A DNA stretch of 64,000 nt from a virus. The notes beneath the pieces were generated by a model. The model did no database searches, was not told where the DNA came from, and saw only the letters and a program-made list of their open reading frames with translations. Shown here piece by piece: positions 480 to 64,000 of this stretch. The position numbers were made by a program, and so were the translations under genes. Position 1 is the first letter of the stretch. Each line of letters starts with the position of its first letter. The stretch is taken from positions 1-64,000 of the IMG/VR virus record IMGVR_UViG_3300042554_002903; one strand, given 5' to 3'.

Positions 480-508
480 AATGGGTCTCATATGGTGTGA
501 GACCCATT
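480..508 (+). repeat. inverted pair of the dispersed motif, 10-bp perfect hairpin
   Basis: ATGGGTCTCA (481-490) is followed after a 7-base loop by its exact complement TGAGACCCAT (498-507), with A480/T508 extending the stem. This is the only place where two motif copies face each other closely. No T-run follows, so it is a weak terminator at best. It may instead be a double binding site or a leader hairpin 5' of the tRNA at 516. Confidence 0.7.
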
Positions 509-515
509 CTATATA

Positions 516-604
516 GGGGAGGTGATGAAATCGGTAGACAAATGGAGTAATGTCCAGGGGGTGCATTCTGTCGCCCCGTGCAGGTTCGAGTCCTGCTCTC
601 CCCG
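516..604 (+). tRNA. tRNA-like gene with long variable arm, Leu-like, isotype unresolved
   Basis: The acceptor stem GGGGAGG/TCTCCCC (one G.U) and a perfect T arm GCAGG-TTCGAGT-CCTGC are clear. The D arm (GAAATCGGTAGACA) resembles bacterial tRNA-Leu, and a long variable arm closed by GGGG/CCCC fits class II tRNAs (Leu, Ser, Tyr). The anticodon arm is odd: TGGA/TCCA closes a loop of only 6 bases (GTAATG), so the anticodon cannot be read with confidence (GTA is possible). CCA is not encoded. Confidence 0.6.
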
Positions 605-626
605 CTAACCAAATTTAAAATAAAAC

Positions 627-1184
627 ATGGGAACAAGTAATTTCTCCTACAATAATACCGACAGGTGTTACGTAGTAATGACGGACGAATTCTTTGAAGT
701 TAATGACTTAAGAGAAGAGGCTTACGCTGTAGCTAATGATGTTGTCACATTCTCTGCTAATATACAGCGTAAAGACGGATACCATGATGGTATGCGCTCA
801 TATCCTTCTCAGTTCCTGCTTCATGTGGACATGAGTGACCGCATCTTCGATGTTGATATCAGTATTTCTTCCCGGTTGATACTCACCTCGGGGTACTACG
901 AACATGCGTGTCTCGACTTCACAACACCTGAGTTCGATCTGTATTCCTCAAATGATTATACGGAAACAGACGAGGTTTATTTATCTGAGTACTTCGTTAT
1001 GGGTACTGACAAGCAGACGGAATATCGTCGACCATTTGTAGAACGCAGGATGGAGAAGATGCACGACAGACTTGTCTCGTTTATGAATGAGTTGTGTGCT
1101 AAGTTGTGTCCCGATACACAATACAGAACTTTTGGACGCTTCAGTAATGGTGAGACCGTGATGGAAAAATGTGAGACCCAATGA
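627..1184 (+). CDS. unknown protein, 185 aa
   Basis: 185 residues, acidic, with mixed alpha/beta character and no recognisable domain. The stop codon overlaps the next start (ATGA) and lies inside a copy of the dispersed motif: GTGAGACCCA ends at 1180, directly against the next ATG. A second partial copy (TGAGACCG) lies 20 bases upstream. It begins the main early plus-strand operon after the tRNA. Confidence 0.65.
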   Translation: MGTSNFSYNNTDRCYVVMTDEFFEVNDLREEAYAVANDVVTFSANIQRKDGYHDGMRSYPSQFLLHVDMSDRIFDVDISISSRLILTSGYYEHACLDFTTPEFDLYSSNDYTETDEVYLSEYFVMGTDKQTEYRRPFVERRMEKMHDRLVSFMNELCAKLCPDTQYRTFGRFSNGETVMEKCETQ

Positions 1185-1426
1185 ATACAGAAAAATATGC
1201 AAGGACATGCTCGTGCTGCGGTGCGGGTATGAATGCCGGCTATGTAATCTTTGATGATTACGCATGCTCGGAAGGCTGCGCAGATAAGATAGCGATGCAG
1301 CACGACTGGTCATCGTACATGGCGATGTGTCTCGCACACGGAAGCCATGACGAAGACAGTGACGAAATCCTACCGGGTGATGACGTCTATTATACAGAGT
1401 GGGACCCCGAAGATAATAAAAATTAA
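1181..1426 (+). CDS. small Cys-rich protein, possible zinc knuckle
   Basis: 81 residues. Four cysteines in the first half (C..C near residues 10-13, then a C..C pair in ACSEGCADK) could bind zinc. The C-terminal third is acidic and ends in Asp/Glu. ATGA overlap with the gene upstream. Family not recognised. Confidence 0.6.
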   Translation: MNTEKYARTCSCCGAGMNAGYVIFDDYACSEGCADKIAMQHDWSSYMAMCLAHGSHDEDSDEILPGDDVYYTEWDPEDNKN

Positions 1427-1428
1427 AC

Positions 1429-1902
1429 ATGGAAATAGCAGCAGGTTACGAGTTGTGCCGTAGTTACATGAATTCCTACGGCCTTGGTTATTGGAAAATT
1501 GAATTAGACCGTAGTAAAAGAAGACTCGGTCGATGTAATCACACCCATAAGACAATCAGTTTGTCCATCCCGTTCATAGAATTGAATGATAAGGACGAGG
1601 TGCTTGATGTCATCTTACATGAGATAGCTCATGCCCTTGCCGGTCCCGGTCATGGTCACGACAGTGTATGGCGGCAGATATGTATCGACATAGGTGCGAG
1701 ACCCCAGGTGTACAATATCACCGCTTTGGTTCCGGCAGGTGTATGGCAAGCACAGTGCGGTATGTGCGGTAATGTATTCCATAAGCACAGACTTGTTAAA
1801 AACATAAGTCGGTGGTGTGGTAGGTGCGGTAGACAACACGGTATGATTGACGCCTGTAAGTTGACATTCAAAAAGGAAAAAATAATTGAAGTAACACGAT
1901 GA
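1429..1902 (+). CDS. SprT-like zinc metalloprotein
   Basis: 157 residues. A zincin helix LHEIAHALAG (HExxH) lies near residue 64 and a third histidine in GPGHGH follows. The C-terminal part has paired cysteines (CGMC and CGRC) of a zinc ribbon. This HExxH plus zinc-ribbon layout is that of the SprT/SprT-like family, whose eukaryotic member SPRTN cleaves DNA-protein crosslinks; the phage role is not established. Length fits SprT-like proteins. Coupled to the next gene by ATGA. Confidence 0.8.
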   Translation: MEIAAGYELCRSYMNSYGLGYWKIELDRSKRRLGRCNHTHKTISLSIPFIELNDKDEVLDVILHEIAHALAGPGHGHDSVWRQICIDIGARPQVYNITALVPAGVWQAQCGMCGNVFHKHRLVKNISRWCGRCGRQHGMIDACKLTFKKEKIIEVTR

Positions 1903-2507
1903 GAAGAGTAAGGAAGCCAGCAACGTGGAATGTATCACGTCTGCGCACGAATTTACGTAAGCTGTACGATGAGTATGTCAATGAGGACATACACTACAGC
2001 GGGTACTACTGGTACAGGGCGGCACATGAGTGGACACACGAGGTAGCGCATCGCTATGGTGTGAGACCCGATGTCGTTGCCGGTATCGTTGCAGCCCTGT
2101 CTCCCGGGGTTACATGGGATGTTAACAAAAAAGATGCGGTTGCGCTTATCGAATACTTCAAAGGTGTGAGGGAGACCGAACCGACTGTGTCTACCTACTA
2201 CCACAATGTACGTAAGGCGGGTTGGATATGGAACGGACAACCCATCGAAGGCGTACTCGGTGGTAATAAGACACGCAACTTCTACTTAAACATCCTCAAC
2301 CCTTATGATAATCATGCCGTAACTATCGACAGACATGCAGTTAAGGCGGCCCGGGGTATGAGTAAGGGGGGTGCTGTTGCTATAACAGATGCACAGTATA
2401 GTATTGTAGCCCATGCCTACCGGATGGAAGCATCGCGGTTGGGCCTCACACCATGTCAGTTCCAGGCTATAACATGGGAAGCCTATAAAACAAAACACAA
2501 TCGTTAA
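1899..2507 (+). CDS. HhH/glycosylase-like phage protein (tentative)
   Basis: 202 residues. The segment from about 50 to 150 (VAGIVAALSPGVTW, a GNKTRNFYLN stretch, then TIDRHAVKAARG) resembles phage proteins with a helix-hairpin-helix glycosylase-like fold: the small/aromatic 'ALSP' loop and the 'IDRHA' aspartate-histidine stretch. Catalysis is not shown. A GGGCCTCAC motif copy lies near its end. Follows the SprT-like gene by ATGA overlap, which may hint at a shared DNA-repair role. Confidence 0.5.
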   Translation: MRRVRKPATWNVSRLRTNLRKLYDEYVNEDIHYSGYYWYRAAHEWTHEVAHRYGVRPDVVAGIVAALSPGVTWDVNKKDAVALIEYFKGVRETEPTVSTYYHNVRKAGWIWNGQPIEGVLGGNKTRNFYLNILNPYDNHAVTIDRHAVKAARGMSKGGAVAITDAQYSIVAHAYRMEASRLGLTPCQFQAITWEAYKTKHNR

Positions 2508-2512
2508 ATAAA

Positions 2513-2544
2513 TTTGCACAATTAAAAAATAAGAAATAAATTTG
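2513..2544 (+). promoter_or_regulatory. Bacteroidota-type promoter
   Basis: TTTG (2513-2516), 20 bp, TAAATTTG (2537-2544), with the start codon at 2552. AATTTGCACA is duplicated, so the -33 of this promoter is the TTTG of the first copy. It drives the small-gene block from 2552. Confidence 0.7.
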
Positions 2545-2551
2545 CACACCC

Positions 2552-2893
2552 ATGTTTAAAATTAAAATCGAAATCGAGGTACCTCAGCGCGTAGTTGAGG
2601 ACATCCTGGTCACAGCCTTTGAAGGTGGTATCAACTACTGGTGCTATAAGGTAACAGGTCATAAAGTAGGTTTTGCATCTGATTGGCTTACCAAAGGGGA
2701 TGGGACTCCCTTAAATTTGCACACAGAGGAAGGTGTTAAGACATTACACATCTCTCATCTTCTTGATGGCTTGAGTAAAGCTATCGCTCAGGGTATGTGT
2801 GAGGCCGATCTCAATGAGGACTGGCACGTCGATGCCGAGCAAGCCGATTGTATTATGCAGCTCGCAGTGTTTGATGAAATAATGTATGGATGA
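2552..2893 (+). CDS. unknown conserved-type phage protein, 113 aa
   Basis: 113 residues. The N-terminal beta segment is followed by a VEDILVTAFEGGINYWCY stretch. Similar 'LVTAxEGGxNYW' segments occur in many small phage proteins of unknown function, which is knowledge of the family and not a function call. Overlaps the next start by 8 bases. The promoter ends 7 bases upstream, so the 5' leader must be very short or absent. Confidence 0.65.
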   Translation: MFKIKIEIEVPQRVVEDILVTAFEGGINYWCYKVTGHKVGFASDWLTKGDGTPLNLHTEEGVKTLHISHLLDGLSKAIAQGMCEADLNEDWHVDAEQADCIMQLAVFDEIMYG

Positions 2894-3161
2894 TATGACA
2901 CAGAAGAATTTTCCCAACGGTTTCACCTCATGGTATGAGACCCATTTCGAAATCTCGGTAGCGATTCATAAGCTATTCGACAGCGAGCACTACCCGGATA
3001 AGATCAGAGAGAGATATGAGGAGAGCGGATACGGTGCACTGTATGAACTGAGCGAGGAGTTGACCGACAAGTTTGAAAAGAAGTACGAGCACAGGGTGTG
3101 GGAAGGTTGCGACTACTACGAAACCCTTAACGAATTCATTGCTGAAGAATTTACACAATAA
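2886..3161 (+). CDS. small acidic helical protein
   Basis: 91 residues, strongly acidic (runs such as LYELSEELTDKFEKKYEHR), likely helical, no recognised domain. Contains a TGAGACCCA motif copy at 2936-2944 in an in-frame position (YETHF). Confidence 0.6.
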   Translation: MDDMTQKNFPNGFTSWYETHFEISVAIHKLFDSEHYPDKIRERYEESGYGALYELSEELTDKFEKKYEHRVWEGCDYYETLNEFIAEEFTQ

Positions 3162-3167
3162 AAAAGT

Positions 3168-3734
3168 ATGAACAGAAAACAAATGCAGGATTACATCAGC
3201 ATGTACAATACGTACCTGTCTGATAACGAACTCATCTCTATAGTGGGTATGATCGCAAGCGAGAAGTTAAGACGTGACGGTATACACCTATATCAAGGTG
3301 TCCCCGCCGGCTTGCGTAATTTTCACCTCAGTACCAAAGAGGGATATGCAGCAGCGATTGATCAACTCGAGGAGCAGTTGGATAAGATGGGCCTCACACT
3401 TGATGAGTACGTGCTATACAGCAGGTATTATGGTCTCTTCGACTCCCACTTCTTCCAGGTCACCGAGCCAGGTAAGGCAAGGGTAAGTGAGTACGGAGTG
3501 AGGACTACGGTAGACTTCCTTCTGTATCTCGTGACGGGTAAGTCGAATGAGGACATGTATGAGGCCGTCTCGATTCTGAAGGACCAACCCAAGTGGCCCA
3601 AGGATCTGGATGTAATGGGCCTCACTGTCAACTTCTACCAGAACGGTAACGTAAAGATCAAGGGATGGAACGATGACATGCAGCGCAGATACCTCGAGTT
3701 CATGGAGATAAGAAGAAAGGTTAAAGCAGTATGA
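3168..3734 (+). CDS. unknown protein, 188 aa
   Basis: 188 residues of mixed helices. Two GGGCCTCAC motif copies (3386 and 3615) both encode Gly-Leu-Thr. Coupled by ATGA to the next gene. No family recognised. Confidence 0.6.
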   Translation: MNRKQMQDYISMYNTYLSDNELISIVGMIASEKLRRDGIHLYQGVPAGLRNFHLSTKEGYAAAIDQLEEQLDKMGLTLDEYVLYSRYYGLFDSHFFQVTEPGKARVSEYGVRTTVDFLLYLVTGKSNEDMYEAVSILKDQPKWPKDLDVMGLTVNFYQNGNVKIKGWNDDMQRRYLEFMEIRRKVKAV

Positions 3735-3916
3735 TAAACCAAAGAGTTACATTCGTCCGCTTCCGTTCTCAGTTGAGAATGACAGGCGTTATCGTAGAGC
3801 AAAAGCACGACAACCATACCGGTCGGCTCTACTACAAGATCAAGGGAGACGATGGCATCTCCTACTTCAGGTACCCTAACGAAATAACAACAGATGATAA
3901 AGTACGTGTTCAGTAA
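3731..3916 (+). CDS. small SH3-like basic protein
   Basis: 61 residues, beta-rich, with a pattern (VTFVRFRSQLRMTGVIVEQ, then YYKIKGDDGISYFRYPNEI) typical of small SH3-like barrels that bind nucleic acid or protein. Function unknown. Overlaps the next gene by 23 bases. Confidence 0.55.
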   Translation: MINQRVTFVRFRSQLRMTGVIVEQKHDNHTGRLYYKIKGDDGISYFRYPNEITTDDKVRVQ

Positions 3917-4166
3917 GAAGAGGGATGAGGCCCATCAGTTTGAGACGGTCTCACACCTACCCGATGAGCAAGTCTTACGAGGCTTGGTACCGGATGGTCA
4001 CTACTCAGACATTCAAAAGATCATGCATAAAGATGACGGTACCCGCTACTTCTGCTCCAGTCAGGAAGAAGTAAGGGACACACCTGAGTTGTATGCTGCC
4101 ATCAATTCCCACCCCTACGGGAAGCTTGCTTTCCATAATGTAACCTTTATACCGCAGGAACTATGA
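3894..4166 (+). CDS. unknown small protein, 90 aa
   Basis: 90 residues, start inside the previous gene. A GATGAGGCCCAT motif copy and a TGAGACGGTCTCA palindrome fall at 3924-3955. ATGA overlap with the following gene. Confidence 0.55.
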   Translation: MIKYVFSKKRDEAHQFETVSHLPDEQVLRGLVPDGHYSDIQKIMHKDDGTRYFCSSQEEVRDTPELYAAINSHPYGKLAFHNVTFIPQEL

Positions 4167-4444
4167 CACCACAGGAAATATTGCACAGCATCTTACTTGA
4201 TGCTAAGGCAAGGATTAAGGATGGGGAGTTGAGAGATGATTATGGTGGGCTAAGTATTGGGATATGCTCGTTCTGTCATTATCATAAAAATAGAACAAAA
4301 CTTTCTCATTTTTTGCTTCTTGAATTGATGGACGAACACAGAGAACTAAAGCAATGGGGAGAGTTTATCGCAGATGAATACGACTTCACAGACCCCAAAC
4401 GCCTCGCACTACTCGACTGGCTCATTGAAAGGACTAAGCCATGA
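4163..4444 (+). CDS. unknown small protein, 93 aa
   Basis: 93 residues with a CSFCHYHKN stretch that could bind metal. From here to about 5.2 kb the DNA is more A/T-rich, and I see none of the dispersed motif copies that are common on both sides. Read with the YopX gene next door, this looks like a cassette acquired later. Confidence 0.55.
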   Translation: MTPQEILHSILLDAKARIKDGELRDDYGGLSIGICSFCHYHKNRTKLSHFLLLELMDEHRELKQWGEFIADEYDFTDPKRLALLDWLIERTKP

Positions 4445-4965
4445 GAGAGATAATATTTCGCGGTAAGCGTGTAGATAACGGTGAGTGGGTGTATGGGCAG
4501 TATGTATTTGCGAATGGTAATTCAAAAATGCTTATTGACAGAACGTCATCAAAACCAAGTGAATGGGTTTATGAAGATATTTGTATAAACAACCACTTAA
4601 TAGTAGTATTCACCCCACCTGACAGACAAGGTTGGGATTACGGAACTCAATTTGACTTTTATAAATGCGACCCAGACACCATAGGACAGTTCACCGGACT
4701 GCTCGACAAGAACGGCACAAAGATTTTTGAGGGGGATATAGTGTTTAATTCAAATAGAACACTGCTTACACTAAAAGAAGACACAAGAACTTATTTGGTT
4801 AGATGGCTCAATGGTAAATACGACAAAGAAAACACTTGGTTGCAAACTAAACCGTCCTTTGAGTTTGAGAAAATTAATCCCGATGGTAAAAACTATATGA
4901 GCCTAATTTTCAATCAGTCTCAAATCGAAGTCATCGGCAACATACACGAAGGAGGTCATCCATGA
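4441..4965 (+). CDS. YopX family protein
   Basis: 174 residues. The N-terminus MREIIFRGKRVDNGEWVYG and the later IGQFTGLLDKNGTKIFEGDI are hallmarks of the YopX family, common in phages and prophages of Firmicutes and Bacteroidota. Function unknown. It sits in the motif-free, A/T-richer 4.2-5.2 kb block and is coupled to both neighbours by ATGA. Confidence 0.85.
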   Translation: MREIIFRGKRVDNGEWVYGQYVFANGNSKMLIDRTSSKPSEWVYEDICINNHLIVVFTPPDRQGWDYGTQFDFYKCDPDTIGQFTGLLDKNGTKIFEGDIVFNSNRTLLTLKEDTRTYLVRWLNGKYDKENTWLQTKPSFEFEKINPDGKNYMSLIFNQSQIEVIGNIHEGGHP

Positions 4966-5156
4966 AACAGATAACAGATAAAACAAAATTAAAACAAGGT
5001 GATATTGACATCTACATCTTGTTGTTGTATATTTGCATCGCGTCTGCCGGTTGTGCTACCCGTGTGATCTCACACGACGGACCCATCAAGAAGGTTAAGC
5101 ACAGAGGTAAGGTGTACACAACCGATTCACCACGAACAATTAAAAGGGATATATGA
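4962..5156 (+). CDS. small putative lipoprotein or membrane protein
   Basis: 64 residues. A hydrophobic stretch (residues 17-31, IYILLLYICIASAGC) ends in a lipobox-like SAGC, but about 16 polar residues precede it, which is long for a signal peptide. It may start later or be a single-pass membrane protein. ATGA-coupled on both sides. Confidence 0.5.
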   Translation: MKQITDKTKLKQGDIDIYILLLYICIASAGCATRVISHDGPIKKVKHRGKVYTTDSPRTIKRDI

Positions 5157-5521
5157 ATACTAAACACACACCGGAACCGTGGATAATTAGCCCTATGGAC
5201 CCATACTGCGTCACAACACAAGACCAGAATGAAGATATTTGCACAGTATTACTAAAGGAAGACGCAGCCCGCATCGTCGCCTGCGTGAACGCCTGTGCAG
5301 GGCTTACAGATGAACATCTGTCCAATATTGCACGCGAAATAAATCTCGGCACAGCAGCTATGATGGAACGCGACCGGCTGCTTAAGCTGCGCGACGAACT
5401 GCTGGCAGCCTTAGAAGAATATCAGCGCATGTATATTACCATTGAGCCAGCCGGTGGATGGCAGGGCGTTTACGAGCAGGGAAAAGCCGCCATCACCAAA
5501 GCGAAAGGAGGTCAGTCATGA
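5153..5521 (+). CDS. unknown phage protein, 122 aa
   Basis: 122 residues. The N-terminus (HTPEPW, then DAARIVACVNACAG) matches a widespread family of small phage/prophage proteins of unknown function. The codons are G/C-richer than those of its left neighbour. Ends with AKGGQS just before a 6-codon ORF that I do not call. Confidence 0.65.
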   Translation: MNTKHTPEPWIISPMDPYCVTTQDQNEDICTVLLKEDAARIVACVNACAGLTDEHLSNIAREINLGTAAMMERDRLLKLRDELLAALEEYQRMYITIEPAGGWQGVYEQGKAAITKAKGGQS

Positions 5522-5545
5522 GCAACACAACAAAATAAAACAGGG

Positions 5546-6040
5546 ATGAACAATAAACTGAGAGACATCAAGGAGATCCGGGGTGACGAGAGCAGGGTGA
5601 TCGTACCCACTACTATGGTCGTGCACCATCGCCTTCTCGGTCGCAAGATGGACCACCGCTTCGCCGGCTTCATCGTCACGGGTCAGAACAAACACGGTGA
5701 TTACGTCACGCTACCGATCATACCCGAACATCAGAGAGGTGTACCGGCACGCAGGTTGAAATGCCTGGAGATGGAAGTCACGTTCTCACCACAGGATGTA
5801 GACGGTAAGCACTACGTATGGGGCAGGGCCTTTCCGGAATTAAATTATCCACCGGGATGGGACTACGACCTCGAGAAATTGGTGATGCCCGATGGGTCTC
5901 ACATCGAGATCGAGAAGATTAAAGAAGACCGGTACATGTACAGCTACGATTCTCTTCTATTCTACCACAGAACTTCGGCACTATTTTATTTGTATGACAA
6001 AAAGAAAGCAGTCCAAACCGGAGGAATCGTTTATATCTGA
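5546..6040 (+). CDS. unknown protein, 164 aa
   Basis: 164 residues, basic at the N-terminus and beta-rich. A full motif copy GATGGGTCTCACATC at 5891-5905 encodes Asp-Gly-Ser-His-Ile. Overlaps the next gene by 47 bases. No recognised domain. Confidence 0.55.
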   Translation: MNNKLRDIKEIRGDESRVIVPTTMVVHHRLLGRKMDHRFAGFIVTGQNKHGDYVTLPIIPEHQRGVPARRLKCLEMEVTFSPQDVDGKHYVWGRAFPELNYPPGWDYDLEKLVMPDGSHIEIEKIKEDRYMYSYDSLLFYHRTSALFYLYDKKKAVQTGGIVYI

Positions 6041-6188
6041 GCACGGCTTCGAGCTACTCACACTGGTATCAGTCATAGGCTTCTGTATCTTCCTGCATTA
6101 CTTCTATGCATGGAGCGAGAAGAAGATGTTGAAAGACATACTCGGACCCTATCATTACGAAAGGCAGTACGGTAGATATGAGAAATAA
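5994..6188 (+). CDS. small single-pass membrane protein
   Basis: 64 residues from ATG 5994; an upstream in-frame extension lies wholly inside the previous gene and is less likely. One transmembrane helix (LLTLVSVIGFCIFLHYFYAW, about residues 20-39) follows a polar Lys/Ser-rich N-terminus, and a charged tail follows. Function unknown. Confidence 0.6.
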   Translation: MTKRKQSKPEESFISEHGFELLTLVSVIGFCIFLHYFYAWSEKKMLKDILGPYHYERQYGRYEK

Positions 6189-6573
6189 AAATTTCAACAA
6201 GAGGGAGAAGTTGAATAAGGAAGGGCTTGATGTCCACACTTTTCAGGTCGGTCTCCCTCAATCAGCTATGAAATTCTACCGGGCCATGATAGAAGAGGAA
6301 GGGCTTGACAGAGTAGAGGATGTCATCGAGATCTATCTTGATGAGTATCTCAAGTCCATGGCTAACCAGGTACGTAAGAGGGTGAGTGGTACAGGTGAGG
6401 TCAACGTAACCATCAACGTACTCGGTACCAAGTATAAGACACTCAAGTTTGTGTGCAATATGCTGGGTATGAGTGAGCCCCAATTCATCCAGTACGTAGC
6501 AATCAATATCGCCAGGCGTTATCGCAGTAAGAAAAGACTGCCGGCCAGAATCTATTTAGCTAAGGACAGATGA
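6178..6573 (+). CDS. double ribbon-helix-helix-like DNA-binding candidate
   Basis: 131 residues. Two segments each look like a ribbon-helix-helix unit: residues about 19-62 (HTFQVGLPQSAMKFYRAMIE, then a long helix) and about 77-117 (NVTINVLGTKYKTLKFVCNM, then GMSEPQFIQYVAINIARRY). A tandem RHH in one chain could recognise an asymmetric site. It is coupled by ATGA to the serine recombinase, so it could be an accessory or regulator. The fold is inferred from sequence pattern only. Confidence 0.5.
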   Translation: MRNKNFNKREKLNKEGLDVHTFQVGLPQSAMKFYRAMIEEEGLDRVEDVIEIYLDEYLKSMANQVRKRVSGTGEVNVTINVLGTKYKTLKFVCNMLGMSEPQFIQYVAINIARRYRSKKRLPARIYLAKDR

Positions 6574-57248: not shown

Positions 57249-57253
57249 CACAA

Positions 57254-57643
57254 ATGGAAAACATGTACATAGACGAACTCATTGACATGAGAGAGCAGCT
57301 CCGTAACAATAAGAACTGGAAAGCTGCAGATGAGATACGAGATTACCTCGACACCAAGGATGTTTACATATTCGATACAGTTCATGGTCAAGTAACATTA
57401 CACCTCAACAATAATTTCTTCAAAGAAAAAGACAGAAAGGAAGAAACAAAAAGTATGACCAGAAGAAAATATATTGAGTATCTTGAAAAACAAAGCATAA
57501 ACGCAGAGAAAAGATTGGCCCACTGGATGTATGTGAATACACCCAAAGAAAGGAGGGGAGAACTTGGTTCAGCAGATACATATATAAAAGGATGGGTAAA
57601 AGACATGTTCGTACCTTTTGATTTTTTTAAAAAAAATGCTTGA
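57254..57643 (+). CDS. early protein with KRLAHWM module
   Basis: 129 residues from ATG 57254. The helical first half resembles small 'IDELIDMREQLRNNKNWKAADEIRDYL' proteins, a pattern also seen at the end of cysteinyl-tRNA synthetase (the DALT-like helix pair), so a nucleic-acid or tRNA link is possible but unproven. The C-terminal EKRLAHWM is shared with the protein at 161. Behind an operator-bearing promoter. Confidence 0.6.
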   Translation: MENMYIDELIDMREQLRNNKNWKAADEIRDYLDTKDVYIFDTVHGQVTLHLNNNFFKEKDRKEETKSMTRRKYIEYLEKQSINAEKRLAHWMYVNTPKERRGELGSADTYIKGWVKDMFVPFDFFKKNA

Positions 57644-57670
57644 CTTTTTTTGGGTCTCACATTATCTTTG
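57640..57670 (+). promoter_or_regulatory. early promoter with operator in spacer
   Basis: TTGAC (57640-57644), 18 bp, TATCTTTG (57663-57670); motif TGGGTCTCAC at 57651-57660, 2 bp before the -7. The -33 overlaps the stop of the previous gene. Gene start at 57676. Confidence 0.88.
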
Positions 57671-57675
57671 CAACT

Positions 57676-57918
57676 ATGAATCCGGAATTAACAACAGGAG
57701 AAAAGATGGTAGGTATTGAATTCAATCCATCCAACAACAGCAGAGTAGCTAAAGTTAAACAACTTTATGCCGAGATCATTAACGAGCTCGAAGCCGAGTT
57801 CGAAGAAAGAGTCGAGAACGGACCGACGGCACTGAGTGAATTCTTTCACACCTTTGCAAAACAACAGGCGGTTACTGCCCAGATGGCAGCAGTTAAATTT
57901 TTTACCTGGGGTAAATGA
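57676..57918 (+). CDS. unknown early protein, 80 aa
   Basis: 80 residues from ATG 57676. Acidic helices (NELEAEFEERVENGPTALSEFF). Resembles small phage proteins of the 'virion/Acb2-like' length class, but no family is assigned. ATGA-coupled to the DUF3850 gene. Confidence 0.55.
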   Translation: MNPELTTGEKMVGIEFNPSNNSRVAKVKQLYAEIINELEAEFEERVENGPTALSEFFHTFAKQQAVTAQMAAVKFFTWGK

Positions 57919-58319
57919 ACAAGTGGGTTAATTTGTACGTGAGCGTAAAAGGAGAGGTGAAGCAAGGCGGAGCTTTCTTTGAAAGCAAAGAGGCTGCGCA
58001 GTCAAATGCTACTGACCATATCGGTCCTTCGGATGGGCCTCACTTCTACCACTCAACTATTGATGTCAAACTACATGTCCGTAGTCATGATCTCAAGATA
58101 GCGCCTGCTTATTTCGCAGCAGTAAGTAGTGGTGAGAAAACTTTTGAAGTCCGTAAGAATGACAGAGGTTTCCGTCTCGGTGATGTTCTTGTCCTGAGAG
58201 AGTACGAAGAGAAAGGTTACACCGGTAGCGTAGTGTACAGAAAAGTTGGATACATCCTTCCCGGCGGACAGCACGGCATCGATCCCGAGTACGTCGTCCT
58301 GGGTTTGAAGGAGTTGTAG
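57915..58319 (+). CDS. DUF3850 / ASCH-domain protein
   Basis: 134 residues. Residues 59-134 (HDLKIAPAYFAAVSSGEKTFEVRKNDRGFRLGDVLVLREY, then VVYRKVGYILPGG and YVVLGL) are the DUF3850 form of the ASCH/PUA-like fold, predicted to bind RNA or modified bases. Preceded by about 55 residues of another small domain. Just upstream of the tRNA cluster. Confidence 0.85.
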   Translation: MNKWVNLYVSVKGEVKQGGAFFESKEAAQSNATDHIGPSDGPHFYHSTIDVKLHVRSHDLKIAPAYFAAVSSGEKTFEVRKNDRGFRLGDVLVLREYEEKGYTGSVVYRKVGYILPGGQHGIDPEYVVLGLKEL

Positions 58320-58469
58320 CAGAAAGAGCGTACCAGATACAACAGTAAGAATGACGGACGTGTTGTATGAGATGGTTGTCCGTATCTAAACGCTACAGAT
58401 CGAAGGAGGGTTAAACAATAACTCCAGCAAGCGTAAAAAATAGTGACGATCCGGAAAGACGGGTAACAT

Positions 58470-58541
58470 ACCGGAGTGGCGGAAATGGAACGCCCAACAC
58501 GGCAAATGTTGGACATGCAGGTTCGAGTCCTGTCTCCGGTG
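58470..58541 (+). tRNA. tRNA-Cys (GCA)-like
   Basis: Acceptor ACCGGAG/CTCCGGT (7 bp), D arm with GCG...CGC, anticodon stem CAACA/TGTTG (5 bp) with loop CGGCAAA giving GCA at 34-36, and T arm GCAGG-TTCGAGT-CCTGT. Position 33 is G instead of the universal U, which is unusual and should be checked. 72 nt, no encoded CCA. Confidence 0.75.
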
Positions 58542-58752
58542 CAACGAGTAAGGAATACTCAGCAGTCTTTGATCCAAGACTCATTTAACAATGGATTCGC
58601 TTCAACCAAACAGCGTGAATGGTGGTTCGGGAGATCAATGGAGCCAGACACCTCCTCTCTCGCAGTCTGACTAATTAAGCAGTAAGATGCGCAGGGTTAT
58701 TGAATAGCAAGAAACCGGGAATATCTACTCACCTGTAATTCCAAGGTGGGGC

Positions 58753-58849
58753 GGTCATGAGCGTAATGAGGAGTGGCCATCCGAGTCCTCTATAAGGTAG
58801 AGCTCCTTATGGAGGTAGCAGATTGTGGGTTCGAATCCCACCATGACCC
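58753..58849 (+). tRNA. tRNA-like gene with irregular middle
   Basis: Acceptor GGTCATG/CATGACC is perfect and the T arm GTGGG-TTCGAAT-CCCAC is perfect. Between them 62 bases do not give a standard D and anticodon arm. A D-arm-like CTCT-ATAAGGT-AGAG occurs in the middle and is followed by CTCC-TTAT-GGAG. It may be a long-variable-arm tRNA, carry an insertion, or be decayed. Isotype not assigned. Confidence 0.45.
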
Positions 58850-58996
58850 CAACCACACAGTACGTAAGTACCTTTTGCGGGTGGACCAATACTGACATCG
58901 AATGTCCAAAGTTCACCGTCAGACTACGGAGCCGGGGAACCGAGCCGAGAGCAGTATCCGTTAAGATTGGTTGTGTGGGAGACCCAACGGGGTCGT

Positions 58997-59160
58997 ATCG
59001 GAGTGGCGGAATTGGCAGACGCTAATTGAAATGCACATTATAGAGTAAGATAGATACCAGCTAAGTAGTGTCTTATGCCTTCGGGTACTGGGTCTTAAAT
59101 AATGGAGATTGTAGAAATACAAGTATGTTACTCTTACAGGTTCAAATCCTGTCTCCGGTA
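58997..59160 (+). tRNA. tRNA-Leu-like gene with an insertion of about 80 nt
   Basis: Acceptor ATCGGAG/CTCCGGT (one T.G), Leu-type D arm GCGGAATTGGCAGACGC (59006-59022), variable-arm stem AGTA/TACT, and T arm ACAGG-TTCAAAT-CCTGT are all in place. But 164 nt separate the ends, against about 85 expected. The extra part folds on itself: CATTAT/ATAATG (59036-59041 with 59098-59103) encloses TAAGA/TCTTA and a GCC-TTCG-GGT hairpin. This suggests an intron or insert in the anticodon region. Too short for a complete group I intron. Confidence 0.6.
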
Positions 59161-59193
59161 CGATCCCAAATGGGTCTCACTTTAAAAAACAAG

Positions 59194-59631
59194 ATGATAA
59201 GAAAAGAGATACATACCAGAAGTGATTGGGCAGCTAACGAAGTCAAGCTCTGGAATCAAGTATTGGAGCAAGCATTGAAGTCCGGTAGTCTTGCCGGATA
59301 CAGAACACGCAGAGCGATTCAGAAATTGAATCAGGCCCTGCGGATATACGACCATTATGTCGCGGAGTTCGGTAAGGCAGTCCGTGCTATGAGGGGAGAA
59401 TGTCCAGTTAATGATGTAAAAAACTGGACATCGGATGGGTCTCACACCGTGCTGCACATTACTCTTCGGGAATACTGCGACAGTTGTGCTGATGACTGCT
59501 GTACTGATTATGGTACAGAAGTTAGGGTGAATGGAGAGGCGTTGGAGTGTAATAATCAAGATACCGCCACCATACTTCAAAAAGTGCTGGAGCATCTGGG
59601 CTACGATGCCGTGGTCGAGGACATCTTTTAA
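59194..59631 (+). CDS. unknown protein after the tRNA cluster
   Basis: 145 residues from ATG 59194 (MIRKEIHTRSDWAANEVKLW); a longer in-frame start would read through the tRNA. Mixed; contains CPVNDVKN and a Cys-rich DSCADDCCTDYG stretch that may bind metal. Motif copies TGGGTCTCAC stand just upstream (59170) and inside (59435). Confidence 0.6.
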   Translation: MIRKEIHTRSDWAANEVKLWNQVLEQALKSGSLAGYRTRRAIQKLNQALRIYDHYVAEFGKAVRAMRGECPVNDVKNWTSDGSHTVLHITLREYCDSCADDCCTDYGTEVRVNGEALECNNQDTATILQKVLEHLGYDAVVEDIF

Positions 59632-59665
59632 TATCGAATGGGTCTCACATAAATTAACATAATAA

Positions 59666-59902
59666 ATGATTAAGAAACTTTTTTTCACAGATCTTGGTTT
59701 TTACGAGACATCACCTGAGCCGTTGTATAAACTTCCGCTTCCCACTGTAGGTACTTATCTAATAGCGAGTGCTTACGGTTATTTATGGCTCGAGGTGTAC
59801 GACGAAGATAATGGAGATCATTACAGGCAGAGTGTTGGTTTCGGATTATTCAACGAGGAACAGATTACCGAACTCGTAGCTCTACTCACAAGTTGTCGTT
59901 GA
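59666..59902 (+). CDS. unknown small protein, 78 aa
   Basis: 78 residues, beta-rich (LPTVGTYLIASAYGYLWLEVYD), acidic. A motif copy (59639-59648, TGGGTCTCAC) sits 18 bases before the start with no clear promoter, and another (59909) directly after the stop. Function unknown. Confidence 0.6.
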   Translation: MIKKLFFTDLGFYETSPEPLYKLPLPTVGTYLIASAYGYLWLEVYDEDNGDHYRQSVGFGLFNEEQITELVALLTSCR

Positions 59903-59926
59903 TATCGGTTGGGTCTCACATCAAGT

Positions 59927-59958
59927 CTTGCAACAGCAGGACTTTTTTTGTATCTTTA
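59927..59958 (+). promoter_or_regulatory. promoter with operator copy just upstream
   Basis: CTTG (59927-59930), 20 bp, TATCTTTA (59951-59958). Motif TGGGTCTCAC at 59910-59919 lies upstream of the -33, in a different place from the other early promoters. Gene start at 59963. Confidence 0.55.
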
Positions 59959-59962
59959 CATC

Positions 59963-60223
59963 ATGTTAGAACCCGGGGACATGGCAATAACCAGAGTAGA
60001 CCTGTACAGCAGTAATCCCGTTACCGTGTTCATACCCAAGGGGACCAGAGTCAAAATATTCCGCAGACTGCATCACTACTACGAGGACGACTTTGAAGTC
60101 ATCACCTACTCCATCTCGGTGTACGATACATACGGACTTGATGTCGACTCCGTCTTTATCGAGAAGGTCGTACCGATCAGGATCTGCGATGGGGACATAG
60201 GTGAGCCCCAACAAGCAGGATAG
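59963..60223 (+). CDS. unknown small protein, 86 aa
   Basis: 86 residues from ATG 59963, beta-rich (MAITRVDLYSSNPVTVFIPKGTRVKIFRR). Likely a small barrel. Last gene of the right plus-strand operon before two terminators. Unknown. Confidence 0.55.
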   Translation: MLEPGDMAITRVDLYSSNPVTVFIPKGTRVKIFRRLHHYYEDDFEVITYSISVYDTYGLDVDSVFIEKVVPIRICDGDIGEPQQAG

Positions 60224-60286
60224 TGCGGGTTAACCCCTGATTTGATATCTAACCTGCAAGATAATGCTATATGCTATAAAATATAA

Positions 60287-60308
60287 AAGGCCGGATAAAT
60301 CCAGCCTT
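60287..60308. terminator. terminator, plus operon end
   Basis: AAGGC/GCCTT and GGAT/ATCC form a near-perfect hairpin (60287-60291, 60293-60296, 60299-60302, 60304-60308) flanked by A- and T-rich runs. It can work in both directions between the convergent operons. Confidence 0.65.
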
Positions 60309-60325
60309 ATATTGATTCGCGTATA

Positions 60326-60350
60326 AAAGTTAGGCTCGTCTAACTTTTTT
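60326..60350. terminator. bidirectional terminator
   Basis: AAAGTTAG/CTAACTTT stem with a 6-base loop and T6 on the plus strand. The stop codon of the minus-strand 55-residue gene lies in it. Confidence 0.75.
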
Positions 60351-60507
60351 CTTTAGGTGACTTATCTCTTCTACAGAACCGGATAAAGATCCAGGCGGGT
60401 CCGAGATCTATTGAGAAGATGTACTTCCAATCTACATTGTAGCTCGTCTTACTTATTCCAAAGCCTACTTCAAACTGGGACCAGTCATAACCGAAGCTGA
60501 TATTCAT
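60340..60507 (-). CDS. 55-residue protein, short gene
   Basis: ATG 60507 overlaps the stop of the gene at 60504 (ATGA) and runs to TAG 60342-60340. Begins MNISFGYDWSQFEVGFG; aromatic and beta-rich (WKYIFSIDLGPAWIFIRF) with a basic tail KSPKEKS. Perhaps membrane-associated. The coupling and the flanking terminator support it as the last gene of the minus operon. Confidence 0.65.
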   Translation of the reverse strand: MNISFGYDWSQFEVGFGISKTSYNVDWKYIFSIDLGPAWIFIRFCRRDKSPKEKS

Positions 60508-60785
60508 TGGGCCTCACTTTCATTAAACCAAGCCACGACCTGATCAAGACTGATGCCCTCAACAGTAAGAGAGCGCAGAGAGGATGGACTCACTTCAATC
60601 ACCACCCTACGAGAAGCATCTCCATGAACAGAGTAAGCCAGTACAAAGGACTGCGTCCGTACCCACACACCTCTGACCAGATTATTGGAAACGGTCTCAA
60701 TCCTTTGACCACCGGATCTGGCAATAATAGCGTTCTGCTCCTTGATCACATAGGAGACCACGTCTTCGATGTTTGAAAATTTCAT
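60504..60785 (-). CDS. unknown protein, 93 aa
   Basis: 93 residues, alpha/beta, with a basic middle (ARSGGQRIETVSNNLVRGVW) and a strand-rich VFVLAYSVHGDASRRVVIEV-like part. A TTGGGCCTCAC motif copy covers its stop. ATGA-coupled on both sides. Function unknown. Confidence 0.55.
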   Translation of the reverse strand: MKFSNIEDVVSYVIKEQNAIIARSGGQRIETVSNNLVRGVWVRTQSFVLAYSVHGDASRRVVIEVSPSSLRSLTVEGISLDQVVAWFNESEAQ

Positions 60786-60853
60786 GCAGTATTGTTTTTG
60801 ATTTTATCCTTTAACTCGTCGAGTTCACGCATTAGCTTACCAAGCTCACACAT
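60782..60853 (-). CDS. 23-residue coiled-coil peptide or frameshifted tail
   Basis: ATG 60853-60851 to TGA 60784-60782, ATGA-coupled to the next gene. Strongly amphipathic (MCELGKLMRELDELKDKIKNN). The same frame is open further upstream (PGKIRTQILFDKK) inside the 3' end of the gene at 60832. It could be a separate micro-gene or the true C-terminus of that gene reached by a -1 shift. Confidence 0.45.
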   Translation of the reverse strand: MCELGKLMRELDELKDKIKNNTA

Positions 60854-61182
60854 CTTCTTATCGAAGAGTATTTGTGTGCGGATCTTTCCTGGTTATTGCG
60901 CCTCCTGTAGTCATCGCAATATCCTTTAACATATTCCATGACTTCATCTACTTCTTTGTTATGATTGATAGTGATGAAGAACTCACAATCACCGATTATA
61001 TGAGCTATCAACATCGGTACCAGTGTACCTGGGCGATTGACTGTTAGTGTTACGAAGTCCCCGCACTTAACACTGATAGCACGCCCTTTGGCGTCTATTG
61101 TTGCCGGTAGTGATTCGGGACGGTCTTTCTTGATCATCACCAGTGTTTCCTTGATGTAGTCTAATTTTTCCTGTAATTCCAT
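60832..61182 (-). CDS. unknown protein, 116 aa, 3' end in doubt
   Basis: 116 residues. The N-terminal helix (LQEKLDYIKETLVMIKKDRPESLPATIDAKG) and a beta core are convincing. The last about 18 residues (SAHKYSSIRRCVSLVS) are unlike the rest, while another frame continues a good helix. Strong promoter at 61187. Unknown function. Confidence 0.6.
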   Translation of the reverse strand: MELQEKLDYIKETLVMIKKDRPESLPATIDAKGRAISVKCGDFVTLTVNRPGTLVPMLIAHIIGDCEFFITINHNKEVDEVMEYVKGYCDDYRRRNNQERSAHKYSSIRRCVSLVS

Positions 61183-61186
61183 TATG

Positions 61187-61217
61187 CAAAGATAAGAGCT
61201 TGCGCCCCATAAGTCAA
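61187..61217 (-). promoter_or_regulatory. early-type promoter, minus strand
   Basis: TTGAC (61217-61213), 18 bp, TATCTTTG (61194-61187), five bases before the start at 61182. The spacer holds only a partial motif (ATGGGGC). Confidence 0.8.
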
Positions 61218-61453
61218 GCTTTTTCTTCAGTTTCTTCCGGGCTTTGGATGGGCCTCACACTAAGGAGAACCGTACCTATCTCAGTAGCTGTAACTCGAGT
61301 AGACGCTATACGCTCAAGAAGAGACATAATAGCGTGGTAATGCTTCCAGCGATAGAAGTTAAAAGGGCTTACACCCAGTGTTTCCGCCACTTTCTTCGCG
61401 GTGTATCCCAGGGAGTAGAGGTGGGGGTACTCCTTTTTGCTTTTAATACGCAT
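61214..61453 (-). CDS. small HTH DNA-binding protein
   Basis: 79 residues from ATG 61453 (MRIKSKKEYPHLYSLGYTAKKVAETLGV). A helix-turn-helix is clear: SLGYTAKKVAETLGVSPFNFYRWK. A longer in-frame start upstream would lie inside the promoter. It ends in the promoter of the next gene, carries a GATGGGCCTCACAC motif copy near its 3' end, and borders the gene-poor region. A plausible phage regulator and a candidate binder of the dispersed motif. Confidence 0.7.
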   Translation of the reverse strand: MRIKSKKEYPHLYSLGYTAKKVAETLGVSPFNFYRWKHYHAIMSLLERIASTRVTATEIGTVLLSVRPIQSPEETEEKA

Positions 61454-61456
61454 ATT

Positions 61457-61488
61457 CAAATATACAAATATTGTAGGTATAATACAAA
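61457..61488 (-). promoter_or_regulatory. TTTG-N20-TATATTTG promoter of the HTH gene
   Basis: Minus strand TTTG (61488-61485), 20 bp, TATATTTG (61464-61457), three bases before the HTH start. The transcript may be leaderless or very short in its leader. Confidence 0.75.
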
Positions 61489-61545
61489 TGGGATGTCGTT
61501 TTTCCCGAGGAAACACTTTTTGGTGAGGAAGTAAGGGTGCTGCCT

Positions 61546-61588
61546 AAAAAAAGGCCCGGGGGTAGAAATGAGCCGGCCCCCTTTTTTT
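61546..61588. terminator. strong G/C hairpin, terminator-like
   Basis: A7, then GGCCCGGGGG...CCGGCCCCC, then T7. Isolates the HTH gene from the region to its right. No gene clearly ends here, so what it terminates is unclear. Confidence 0.6.
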
Positions 61589-62291
61589 ACCGGGGGGTGT
61601 GGGAAGAGGATGGCTGGGAAAGAATGCCTGGAAATAAAAAGTCCTGCGGGAGTGAGTGGTAAACGATATAGATCATGGCAGTTCGGCTCCGGTTAAAAAT
61701 AGCCCCGGCCCGATTCGTTCAGCCCGTCACACAATACGCGACGCAATACAGCGAGCCTACATACATACACATTACGAATTGAAACCCGTTAACAATCGAA
61801 CCACCATTTACATCTAATTAATTGATTTAAAACAAGTTAGCGAAGCGCAGCCAGCGAATAAAACTTAAATAATTACTGTAAGTAACCCCCTCTAACTCAT
61901 TGATTACCAACGACTTACACCAGCGATTCGATGAAAATTTTTACCCGATTTTTGAATAAAAAAAGGGAAACTACAGAAACGTTTTTTATATCCGCACCTT
62001 AAAAACCGCGCTATCATTGGCTTATAAGGAAACTCATTGAAAACCAACACTTTACATACATAGCAAAAAAAGATATAAAGCATTGAAAACCACCACTTTA
62101 CACTATTTCACATTTTACATATATAAGGAGTAAACAAAACAAGTAAACCCGAAAAAATTAAAAGCCTTGCTACCATTGGCTTTAGTCGTTTGTAAACACT
62201 TATCTTTAATTTTTTATAAAAATAATTTGCTTTACCCATTGCCATATCAATCGGCTGTATTAATATTGCAGCACCATTTAATATTTACACA
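61589..62291. other. gene-free, repeat-bearing region (possible origin or control region)
   Basis: No ORF worth calling on either strand. The left part is G/C-rich, the right part A/T-rich. A 22-bp direct repeat CATTGAAAACCAMCACTTTACA occurs at 62035-62056 and 62081-62102 (one mismatch). CTATCATTGGCTT (from 62011) and CTACCATTGGCTT (from 62170) are a second near-repeat pair, the latter within an AAAGCC/GGCTTT hairpin. The dispersed motif is absent. Such repeats beside an A/T-rich stretch can mark an iteron-type origin, but no initiator is recognised. A weak -7 (TAATATTG, 62261) precedes the gene at 62292. Confidence 0.45.
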
Positions 62292-62909
62292 ATGAAAAAT
62301 TCAAACATTCAAAAGGCGCAAAATGAGACAGCGCAAAAGTCTCAATCCATTTCGCTGATGGTATTAATCGACTGTGAAACCAATCATGAAACTAAAGAAG
62401 TTGCGCAATTCGTAGCTATTGCCAATACTACTGAAACGGTGAATCAGCAAGCGGGCAAAATCTTTACCGCTGCAAGAGTAGCGGCACGCAATGCCATTCA
62501 ATCCGGTTATAAAGTCAAGGAACTGAAAAAGGTAAAAGATAGTGAAGACAGTCAAGTAATTGCGCGCAAAGTCCGCGAATCAGATTTTCGCATCACCATT
62601 GCACTGAATTACAGTACCGATGATGAGCAAATTTTGGGTAAAATTGTATCTTTGCCCTTTGCATTCACGGACGGGCAAAAGGTGCGGAAATCGGCTATTG
62701 ACTTTATCAATGCTCTTTTATCGGCTCCCATTGACAGGGCGCACGATGAATTAATTGAATCTTCTCTATTCACTGACAACCTGAAAGTAAAAGAAGTTCC
62801 GACGGTAACAAAGGACGGTAAGCAAACGGTTCGCAAAGTGGCGGACGTGCCTCAATTGGCTGACTTCCGTCGCTTCCTTGACTCTCCTTTGTCAATTGCG
62901 CTGAATTAA
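62292..62909 (+). CDS. unknown protein, 205 aa
   Basis: 205 residues, alpha/beta, Gln-rich start (NIQKAQNETAQKSQSISLMVL), later VSLPFAFTDGQKVRKSAIDFINALLSAP. It stands alone between two long non-coding stretches. Codon choice looks different from the phage neighbours and no motif copy lies in or near it, so it may come from another element. Not recognised. Confidence 0.6.
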   Translation: MKNSNIQKAQNETAQKSQSISLMVLIDCETNHETKEVAQFVAIANTTETVNQQAGKIFTAARVAARNAIQSGYKVKELKKVKDSEDSQVIARKVRESDFRITIALNYSTDDEQILGKIVSLPFAFTDGQKVRKSAIDFINALLSAPIDRAHDELIESSLFTDNLKVKEVPTVTKDGKQTVRKVADVPQLADFRRFLDSPLSIALN

Positions 62910-62915
62910 GGCGCG

Positions 62916-62995
62916 ACGGTGCAACGTGCTGAAATAAGGCACTGACTGCGAAAGTATTGCACCGTGCAAAATTAGAGTATTTATACTCTTGTTTT
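62916..62995 (+). terminator. paired hairpins after the 205-aa gene
   Basis: ACGGTGCAA/TTGCACCGT (62916-62924 with 62957-62965) encloses a GTGC/GCAC hairpin, followed by GAGTAT/ATACTC (62975-62988) and a T-rich run. The second stem is a likely terminator; the first may be part of it or of the RNA that follows. Confidence 0.55.
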
Positions 62996-63492
62996 ACGTT
63001 CTTTACAAATACCGTTTCAGAGTGCCTGAATTAAGTTTCACGGGCAAAGAATGCACAAGGCTACAAGGTTTTAATATCTGCAAAGTGAGTTAAAGTGTAA
63101 CGGTTAAGGTAATGCCATTCTATTAATGCCATTGTAAGGAGTAAGAAAGACCGTGTGACGGGGTCTGAATCAGCGATTCGCAAACCGTAATTTATTAAAG
63201 AGTCTTATATAAGTCAGGTTGATGAAATTAGGACAGGCGAATTAAAATAGAACGCTAAAGGCATAACGGCACTGCAATACCCCGTAATAATGACAGCACG
63301 TTGAATAGGCTAACTTTTATGCCTGATTCAGTCAGCCGTCCGCCCTTAATTCATGTGACAGGGCAGCGCAAAATAAGATATAAATAAGCGCAATAAAAGC
63401 AAAAGGAGCTTTTAAAAATGTAAACAAAAAAATAAGAGTCTATATTATACCATTACATTTGGGGGCTGGCTTTAATTAGTCAGTCCCTTTTT
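62996..63492 (+). ncRNA. large structured RNA candidate with terminator
   Basis: About 500 bases without a plausible ORF, yet dense in exact complementary segments: AACGGTT/AACCGT (63099-63105 with 63183-63188) closing a multiloop that holds AGACC/GGTCT (63148-63166) and GAATC/GATTC (63167-63179); AGGCATAA/TTATGCCT (63259-63266 with 63317-63324); GCCCT/AGGGC (63342-63364); AAAAGC/GCTTTT (63395-63413). It ends in a 10-bp terminator stem with T5 (63462-63487). Phages with tRNA clusters often carry large RNAs such as GOLLD or ROOL. Identity with these is untested. Confidence 0.5.
63462..63492 (+). terminator. rho-independent terminator of the structured RNA
   Basis: GGGGCTGGCT/AGTCAGTCCC stem of 10 bp (two G.U), 6-base loop, then TTTTT. 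Confidence 0.8.
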
Positions 63493-63509
63493 GTGTGGTA
63501 TCTCTACTA

Positions 63510-63530
63510 CTCATGTGAACCATACATGAG
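63510..63530. repeat. inverted repeat CTCATG...CATGAG
   Basis: CTCATG (63510-63515) and CATGAG (63525-63530) with 9 bases between, about 10 bases before a motif copy (GTGAGACCCATCG, from 63542). Could be an operator. No strong promoter is seen; a weak TTACTTTG lies at 63578. Confidence 0.4.
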
Positions 63531-63666
63531 GTGCAATATATGTGAGACCCATCGCAAAAGTTAAAACGTGTATGCGTTTACTTTGCGCCCGTCTCATAGG
63601 TTGTGCAGGTTTGCCCGTTATGCTTGACACCATTGCGGACGGTTTCAATTGCCGTGCAGCCACTAC

Positions 63667-63696
63667 GCCCATCACTCAAATGTGGTGGGCTTTTTT
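63667..63696 (+). terminator. terminator abutting a start codon (attenuator-like)
   Basis: GCCCATCA/TGGTGGGC (63667-63674 with 63683-63690, one G.T), then T6, and the next ATG begins at 63697 right after the T-run. A transcript starting near 63590 would end before the gene unless the hairpin is opened. Confidence 0.65.
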
Positions 63697-63885
63697 ATGC
63701 AGAAAAATATAACAATCGAGATTCCAGAAAGTGTGGATATCTCACACATGGTGCAAGTCATTGCTTTTGCTTGTCTATACTCAGATCATGTTACACCTGA
63801 CGAGTATGAAGTTCTTTGTGACATACTTAAACAATTAACTGATGAGCCTGTGGAAATACCTAATGCTATGTTTGAAAATAAGTGA
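63697..63885 (+). CDS. unknown small protein, 62 aa
   Basis: 62 residues from ATG 63697 (MQKNITIEIPESVD). A longer in-frame start would read through the terminator hairpin. A beta strand then helices (MVQVIAFACLYSDHVTPDEYEVLCDIL). Its stop TGA is part of a motif copy GTGAGACCCAATG that also carries the next start. Confidence 0.6.
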   Translation: MQKNITIEIPESVDISHMVQVIAFACLYSDHVTPDEYEVLCDILKQLTDEPVEIPNAMFENK

Positions 63886-63891
63886 GACCCA

Positions 63892-64000
63892 ATGCGATTA
63901 ATAAAATTAACCAATGACGGCCCAGATAAAACATGTAATGTATGGGTCAATCCTGCTGAAATTGTGTGGATTCGTAAACATTCTGAATCCGTTACTCTTT
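63892..64000 (+). CDS. FlbD-like small protein, cut by the window end
   Basis: 36 residues visible (MRLIKLTNDG...VNPAEIVWIRKHSESVTL). The pattern 'xIKLTxxxG...xNPxxIxxIxxxxxxVxL' is that of small FlbD-like/SwrD-like proteins found in many phages; function unknown. The ATG lies in a copy of the dispersed motif shared with the previous stop. Confidence 0.55.
   Translation, partial: MRLIKLTNDGPDKTCNVWVNPAEIVWIRKHSESVTL

Follow-up and report, generated by a model that had tools for sequence, protein, structure and literature searches.

The stretch of DNA analysed here, bases 1-64,000 (the window) of IMG/VR record IMGVR_UViG_3300042554_002903, belongs to an uncultured bacterial virus whose whole record comprises 66,772 bases (66.8 kb), and carries about a hundred copies of a short asymmetric motif, RWTSGGNCTCAC, scattered over both strands. 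Our analysis confirmed this dispersed motif, and we judge the chances about even that it forms a dispersed operator system working like the stoperators of mycobacteriophage L5, read by one regulator across a clade of uncultured Bacteroidota phages. The operator system is supported by a fixed slot of the motif in promoters, by its co-orientation with late genes and by the presence of sites at homologous codons in related phages.

Scanning both strands of the record with an iterated weight matrix returned 119 sites of RWTSGGNCTCAC, where third-order Markov sequence scanned with an equal cut-off yielded 11.6.

407..63891, both strands: dispersed motif RWTSGGNCTCAC, with 110 of the 119 weight-matrix sites starting in the window (first 407, last 63,882).
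64,080 to 66,339 of the record (start positions): the remaining nine weight-matrix sites, past the window end.

The form TGGGTCTCAC occurs 20 times in the window, versus 0.1 expected from a second-order Markov model, and 24 times in the whole record, the reversed pattern used as a control having none. Training and scanning of the weight matrix used the same sequence; the codon controls used fixed patterns instead, and 94 genes, called by open reading frame (ORF) and hexamer score, contained 78 core matches versus 12 after codon-preserving shuffling (same strand, 48 versus 6.1; opposite strand, 30 versus 6.0), with maxima over 300 shuffles of 12 and 13 for the same and opposite strands, respectively. 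The excess claimed in the initial annotation is thus borne out, and codon-preserving randomisation, which it had proposed as a refuting test, did not give similar counts. Amino-acid conservation of the codons under the motif is the same as that of their genes (0.290 versus 0.286, 32 sites, p=0.95), and Rfam gave no match within the window.

Between GGG and CTC the sites have T in 53%, C in 29%, G in 14% and A in 4% of cases, in agreement with the annotated preference for T, C or G and rarely A; the A/C position holds A at 74% and C at 18%, and the first G of GGG is replaced by C at 28%. A 5′ flank extending the match is present as annotated, but it is nearer to RWT than to the proposed GGWT. 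The annotated asymmetry also holds, in a refined form, the core being an imperfect dyad, TGGG-N-CTCA. Over the 119 sites, positions 4/6 are complementary in 119, positions 2/8 in 86 and positions 3/7 in none, so that the asymmetry itself is fixed. Even spacing of the sites was tested and not found, the spacing being near random, and sites between genes score higher (21.3, 13 sites) than genic ones (16.9, 95 sites; p=0.0003).

Promoter-like elements, defined as TTGAC-N18-TANNTTTG with boxes at -33 and -7, occur ten times in this phage and never in 30 shuffled windows. TAnnTTTG is the -7 consensus of the Bacteroidota primary sigma factor according to PMC7366714, and it is from this promoter consensus alone that the host phylum is predicted to be Bacteroidota. 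Four of the ten elements hold the motif at one identical spacer slot, for which the one-slot chance with random genomic 18-mers is about 0.0005.

50167..50197, plus strand: promoter-like TTGAC-N18-TACCTTTG, motif TGGGTCTCAC in the spacer, at an operator position.
51535..51565, plus strand: promoter-like TTGAC-N18-TATCTTTG, motif TCGGTCTCAC in the spacer; ORF 51583-51855 follows it, and gene 51074-51496 runs divergently.
57218..57248, plus strand: promoter-like TTGAC-N18-TATCTTTG, motif TCGGTCTCAC in the spacer.
57640..57670, plus strand: promoter-like TTGAC-N18-TATCTTTG, motif TGGGTCTCAC in the spacer.
61187..61217, minus strand: promoter-like, spacer free of the motif; upstream of ORF 60832-61182.
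5005, 11963, 50024, 52631 and 56459: the other five promoter-like elements, free of the motif.

Five members of the clade described below (G009, G017, G023, G029 and G030) carry the motif in the identical slot before an ORF, an ATG following 26-27 bases downstream of the first G/C of the motif, and three of these five ORFs resemble, by eye, one MazG-type family. The slot argues for binding at the DNA level and for control of initiation. A second candidate slot, in which TANNTTTG ends in the first G of the motif (14 cases), looked like a coding coincidence and was discarded.

The sites are also oriented with respect to transcription. Late genes of this phage contain 39 sites along transcription and 11 opposed (p=9e-5), and late families of the relatives, named by their genes in this phage, are likewise co-oriented (26664, 43:9; 36710, 16:1; 25768, 9:0; 35803, 8:0). 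Summing 69 loci around the portal gene revealed a flip of orientation, with binned counts of 111 minus and 18 plus sites at 3 to 5 kb upstream and of 73 plus and 2 minus sites at 7 to 12 kb downstream. The late-gene orientation argues for a transcription-linked effect. As for density in the relatives, the primase family has 1.15 sites per kb and the 44899 structural-protein family has none in 16.1 kb. The families of 42930, 44124 and 44899 (window 42930-46239) together lack sites over 34.3 kb in motif-rich relatives, in which several neighbouring late families are site-rich.

Neither megablast with the first 25 kb nor tblastn with the portal protein found a match in 50,697 phage records, and the polymerase gave distant matches alone, below 60% identity, in 951 records. 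Portal profiles led to an uncultured clade, at first six loci and then 84 viral contigs with a relative (portal identity 47-57%), of which the best 80 were kept. The motif was counted in 88 records or stretches excluding this phage (1.46 Mb), several being stretches of longer records and some near copies (e.g. L140/L141), after removal of loci repeating an already counted record. A sister motif, SGGNCTCAG, was found 570 times versus 24.7 expected, which are not independent events since the relatives share ancestry, and the other last bases reach 1.7 to 2.6 times expectation (SGGNCTCAA, 77 versus 45.8; -C, 46 versus 17.5; -T, 54 versus 29.8). In this phage the preference is the reverse, with 65 CTCAC and 12 CTCAG sites (expected 3.5 and 2.2, and 1.8 and 3.2 in a repeat count). 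The first six portal relatives, mostly of a motif-poor branch, showed no motif of the CTCAC form; the CTCAG form emerged from a scan of viral contigs with one long motif version, and its presence in clade members ruled out a motif unique to this phage. The motif-poor branch (G001, G003 to G006, G027, L125, L140 and L141) has few or zero sites per kb, though several of its records still exceed expectation (G003, 9 versus 1.4; G005, 13 versus 1.8; G006, 11 versus 1.8; G027, 10 versus 0.8). Words of the ACCNAAGGT type, perhaps terminator hairpins, are enriched in G001, G003, G004 and G006. The G+C content is 0.448 in this phage and 0.34-0.42 in the relatives, with one 6-kb stretch at 0.50.

Among the loci listed in a 15-mer scan (118 examined), all eight newly named ones with at least five sites had clade protein matches or were clade contigs, and two scans of genome collections returned contigs of one metagenome-assembled genome (MAG) alone. 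A MAG named Sphingomonadaceae WB4_6_108 includes clade contigs (L144 and L145), probably mis-binned, and has 221 SGGNCTCAG in 3.4 Mb versus 69 for the reversed control; it pointed to no host. Samples of Bacteroidota DNA (two plasmid stretches and two phages) contained no SGGNCTCAG and zero to two of the C form each, the two 50-kb plasmid stretches having one to two SGGNCTCAC each.

Whether sites are kept at homologous codons, a check called for in the initial annotation, was addressed in 27 conserved families. Twelve motif-rich relatives have 128 same-strand and 45 opposite-strand sites in them, versus 6.1 and 5.3 after codon shuffling; the corresponding counts are 24 and 8 (versus 2.5 and 2.0) in this phage and 12 and 4 (versus 2.6 and 2.7) in five motif-poor records. 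Sites do recur in the portal gene, where 69 sites across 69 loci fall mainly on few codon positions.

48681..48690, plus strand: motif in the portal gene (47282-49444, minus strand), over codons S-E-A-R (S-E-A/S-R in relatives).

In an alignment of 70 portals, the motif occupies this S-E-A/S-R position in 19 relatives and in this phage, the serine codon being TCT in 18 of the 19 relatives and AGT in this phage, and the C-type base at this site requires AGT. Of the 32 genic sites of this phage, 3 agree exactly with the site of a relative as to alignment column, phase and strand, versus 0.03 expected from random shifts. The shared portal site has C in this phage and G in each of the five relatives compared there; at the shared site in 26087-26638 the sole relative also has C, and at that in 16186-18048 two relatives have C and one has G. 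The base switch thus consists of a genome-wide difference plus one clean shared site. Since most sites do not coincide with those of relatives, turnover of sites is high.

According to PMC6550527 and PMC9283540, L5 has 20-30 stoperators, which are located in promoters and short gaps between genes, point along transcription and lose repression when reversed. The present system resembles that of the L5-clade (cluster A) mycobacteriophages with their Rep repressor in its many short asymmetric sites genome-wide, some of them in promoters. The shared features are at least 20 scattered copies of an asymmetric 13-bp site (here 119), sites in promoters (here promoter-like elements predicted from the sequence, 4 of 10 plus those of five relatives) and a motif slightly variable between related phages; an orientation mostly along transcription is shared as far as the late genes are concerned. 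It differs in having about 119 sites rather than 20 to 30, in placing 95 of the 110 window sites inside genes rather than in short intergenic gaps, in the mixed orientation of its replication genes, in its host phylum, and in a single motif that stays almost unchanged across a diverged clade yet differs by one base in this phage. The L5-type repressor is monomeric, with a helix-turn-helix (HTH) and a Stoperator domain; its possible counterpart here is a clade-wide candidate, the predicted lambda-repressor-like HTH protein 51074. Because the sites are mostly intragenic, the replication block is mixed and no repressor was identified, we do not place this phage in the L5 family. The stoperator papers listed in a literature search mainly concern phages of actinobacteria, and a search that left most subscription papers outside found no such system reported for Bacteroidota phages.

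We infer that one sequence-specific DNA-binding regulator, encoded by phage or host, recognises the motif at the DNA level, and that in the spacers of some early-type promoters the motif would act as an operator. Repression is the most likely outcome there, because the motif-bearing promoters already have near-consensus boxes. Copies inside operons, above all in the late virion genes, would probably act on RNA polymerase as mycobacteriophage stoperators do, restraining or modulating it, and the preference for C rather than G as the last base in this phage probably arose because the specificity of the reader moved. The analogy with dispersed operators drawn in the initial annotation is accordingly strengthened by the promoter slot, the late-gene orientation and the retention at homologous codons, and departs from L5 in that most sites are intragenic; the packaging or modification tag offered there as an alternative found no support, neither having been aimed at directly. 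A more specific scenario, in which a Bacteroidota clade unrelated to L5 independently evolved a genome-wide, mostly intragenic stoperator-like code and about sixty sites of one lineage gained another last base as the reader's specificity moved, is conceivable but falls short of probable, and is made slightly less likely by the restriction of the clean C/G difference to one shared site.

Candidates for the reader were sought among the encoded proteins.

51074-51496, minus strand: candidate regulator gene encoding a 140-aa helical protein, the middle part of which models as a lambda-repressor-like HTH.

All 69 portal loci and all 18 larger records have this gene. The model of its product has a mean pLDDT of 86.3, and most structural matches of the middle domain are lambda-repressor-like HTH proteins. 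Their scores are modest (Foldseek, E of 0.4 at best; VIA, Z of 5.7 at best, with 76 residues at 3.1 Å), making a lambda-repressor-like HTH fold of that domain likely on structural modelling. A profile search of solved structures gave nothing at E<0.1, and Pfam assigned no consistent family to 50 aligned members, with one weak Cro/C1 HTH match and nine to the baculovirus gp41 family. The product of 54029-54286 is a further clade-wide candidate. For the proteins at 6178 and 61214, suggested in the initial annotation as binders of the motif, tblastn searches covered 6 and 8 clade records or stretches, respectively, and gave no match; they are poor candidates because the motif is clade-wide.

Several observations weigh against the operator system. 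The sites are not concentrated between genes, the 15 window sites not fully inside called genes amounting to 13.6% versus 10.6% non-coding bases. Co-orientation is absent from the replication block of this phage (13:16) and not significant in the 50-60 kb block (10:4, p=0.18), and in the relatives the primase-helicase is not co-oriented either (4:12) and the portal is mixed (6:9). Sixty-three of the 67 promoter-like elements in relatives are free of the motif, including those before the portal, and the clean C/G difference is seen at one shared position alone, in the portal. The region of the recognition helix of 51074 varies, as judged by eye, while the motif does not, and in 69 gene copies examined (one record counted twice) the 250 bases upstream contain no site, both of which weaken 51074 as the reader. 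No binding protein is established among the candidates, and no lysogeny module was recognised among the about 39 of roughly 100 called genes that were scanned against Pfam or PHROGs, although one of them, the serine recombinase 6570-7262, matches the PHROGs integrase family.

Chi sites of RecBCD/AddAB are short polar words dispersed in genes with biased orientation, and the motif might instead be such a site, or another polar recombination or replication site, read by a host enzyme of this type; its enrichment would then protect the phage DNA from exonuclease, and the C/G difference would reflect a different host. A short polar word in genic and intergenic DNA at random spacing fits this well, as does its near-constancy over a diverged clade, more to be expected of a conserved host reader than of an immunity repressor that changes fast; the phage also encodes a RecE-like exonuclease, and its G+C content above that of the relatives may mean another host. 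We nevertheless consider this explanation unlikely. The motif here occupies one exact promoter slot, whereas Chi is not known to have a tie to promoters, and its orientation flips between gene blocks around the portal. Moreover, the G form is not enriched in the sampled Bacteroidota plasmid stretches and phages, and all eight newly named loci with five or more sites among the 15-mer matches listed have clade protein matches or are clade contigs.

Equally improbable in our estimation is that the motif is bound by a phage protein that organises the chromosome or acts in replication (DnaA-domain-IV, ParB-, Noc- or SMC-loading-like), coating the genome for replication, partition or condensation.

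7638-8153, plus strand: DnaA domain IV (Bac_DnaA_C) protein lacking the ATPase part, the second candidate DNA binder.

Genome-wide, near-random placement and the site density of the primase family would suit this explanation, and of 22 clade records, 18 have a Bac_DnaA_C match with E up to 1 and 14 have one above the curated cut-off. As in a DnaA-box system, the clade encodes DnaA-IV proteins, and the CACA end of the variant in this phage resembles the end of a DnaA box; the core SGGNCTC and the CAGA end of the clade, in contrast, do not. DnaA-IV proteins are also encoded by motif-poor relatives, which weakens them as readers, and their recognition segment varies among motif-rich relatives by eye. 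The promoter slot and the late-gene orientation are left unexplained, and the 44899 family is devoid of sites. Short DnaA domain IV proteins are common in the clade.

Recognition in transcripts, by a regulatory protein or small RNA binding UUSGGNCUCAS, would account for the late-gene sites lying mostly on the coding strand and for some sites at gene starts: after 16 of 65 matches to GTGAGNCCS one base is followed by ATG, and at least six of these ATGs open an ORF.

1171..1180, minus strand: motif directly before the ATG of ORF 1181-1426.
63882..63891, minus strand: motif at an ORF junction, containing the TGA stop of the upstream ORF and abutting the next ATG (63892).
64080, 65156 and 65540 of the record: same stop/start junction arrangement, sites antisense to the ORFs.

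The four stop/start junction sites are, however, antisense, antisense genic sites far exceed the codon control (30 versus 6 here, 45 versus 5.3 in the relatives), and the promoter motif between -33 and -7 is untranscribed from that promoter, all of which leave an RNA-level element with very little probability. An artefact of codon usage, composition or repeats, or a chance accumulation, for which the only point is that most sites lie in coding DNA, is ruled out with near certainty by the Markov and codon-preserving controls and is at odds with the occurrence of the sister motif across the 88 records or stretches of relatives.

Some further features of the window and the clade were recorded alongside the motif.

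482..506: facing pair of sites, at 482 (plus) and 497 (minus), spaced by 15 bases; a tRNA-like gene (516-605) lies directly downstream.
6570-7262: serine recombinase of 230 aa, with a Resolvase and part of a Recombinase domain, in the replication block.

The tRNA-like gene is unusual and its anticodon could not be assigned. The recombinase matches a PHROGs integrase family, and 16 of 18 larger clade records encode a member of its family. The gene at 16186-18048 appears terminase-like by eye and position, with no PHROGs or Pfam match, and lies about 30 kb from the portal gene, at the opposite end of the late block. In the relative G009 (L067, 39-2681), the primase-helicase gene is split by an apparent intein with an HNH-type ORF, as judged by eye.

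If the motif is indeed a dispersed operator, its hundreds of sites in a clade unrelated to the first would point to a repeated origin of genome-wide operator codes. The difference of one base between this phage and its relatives would then be a natural experiment on the joint change of a protein and its many sites, and the 13-mer would offer a handle for pulling out a regulator of Bacteroidota phages.

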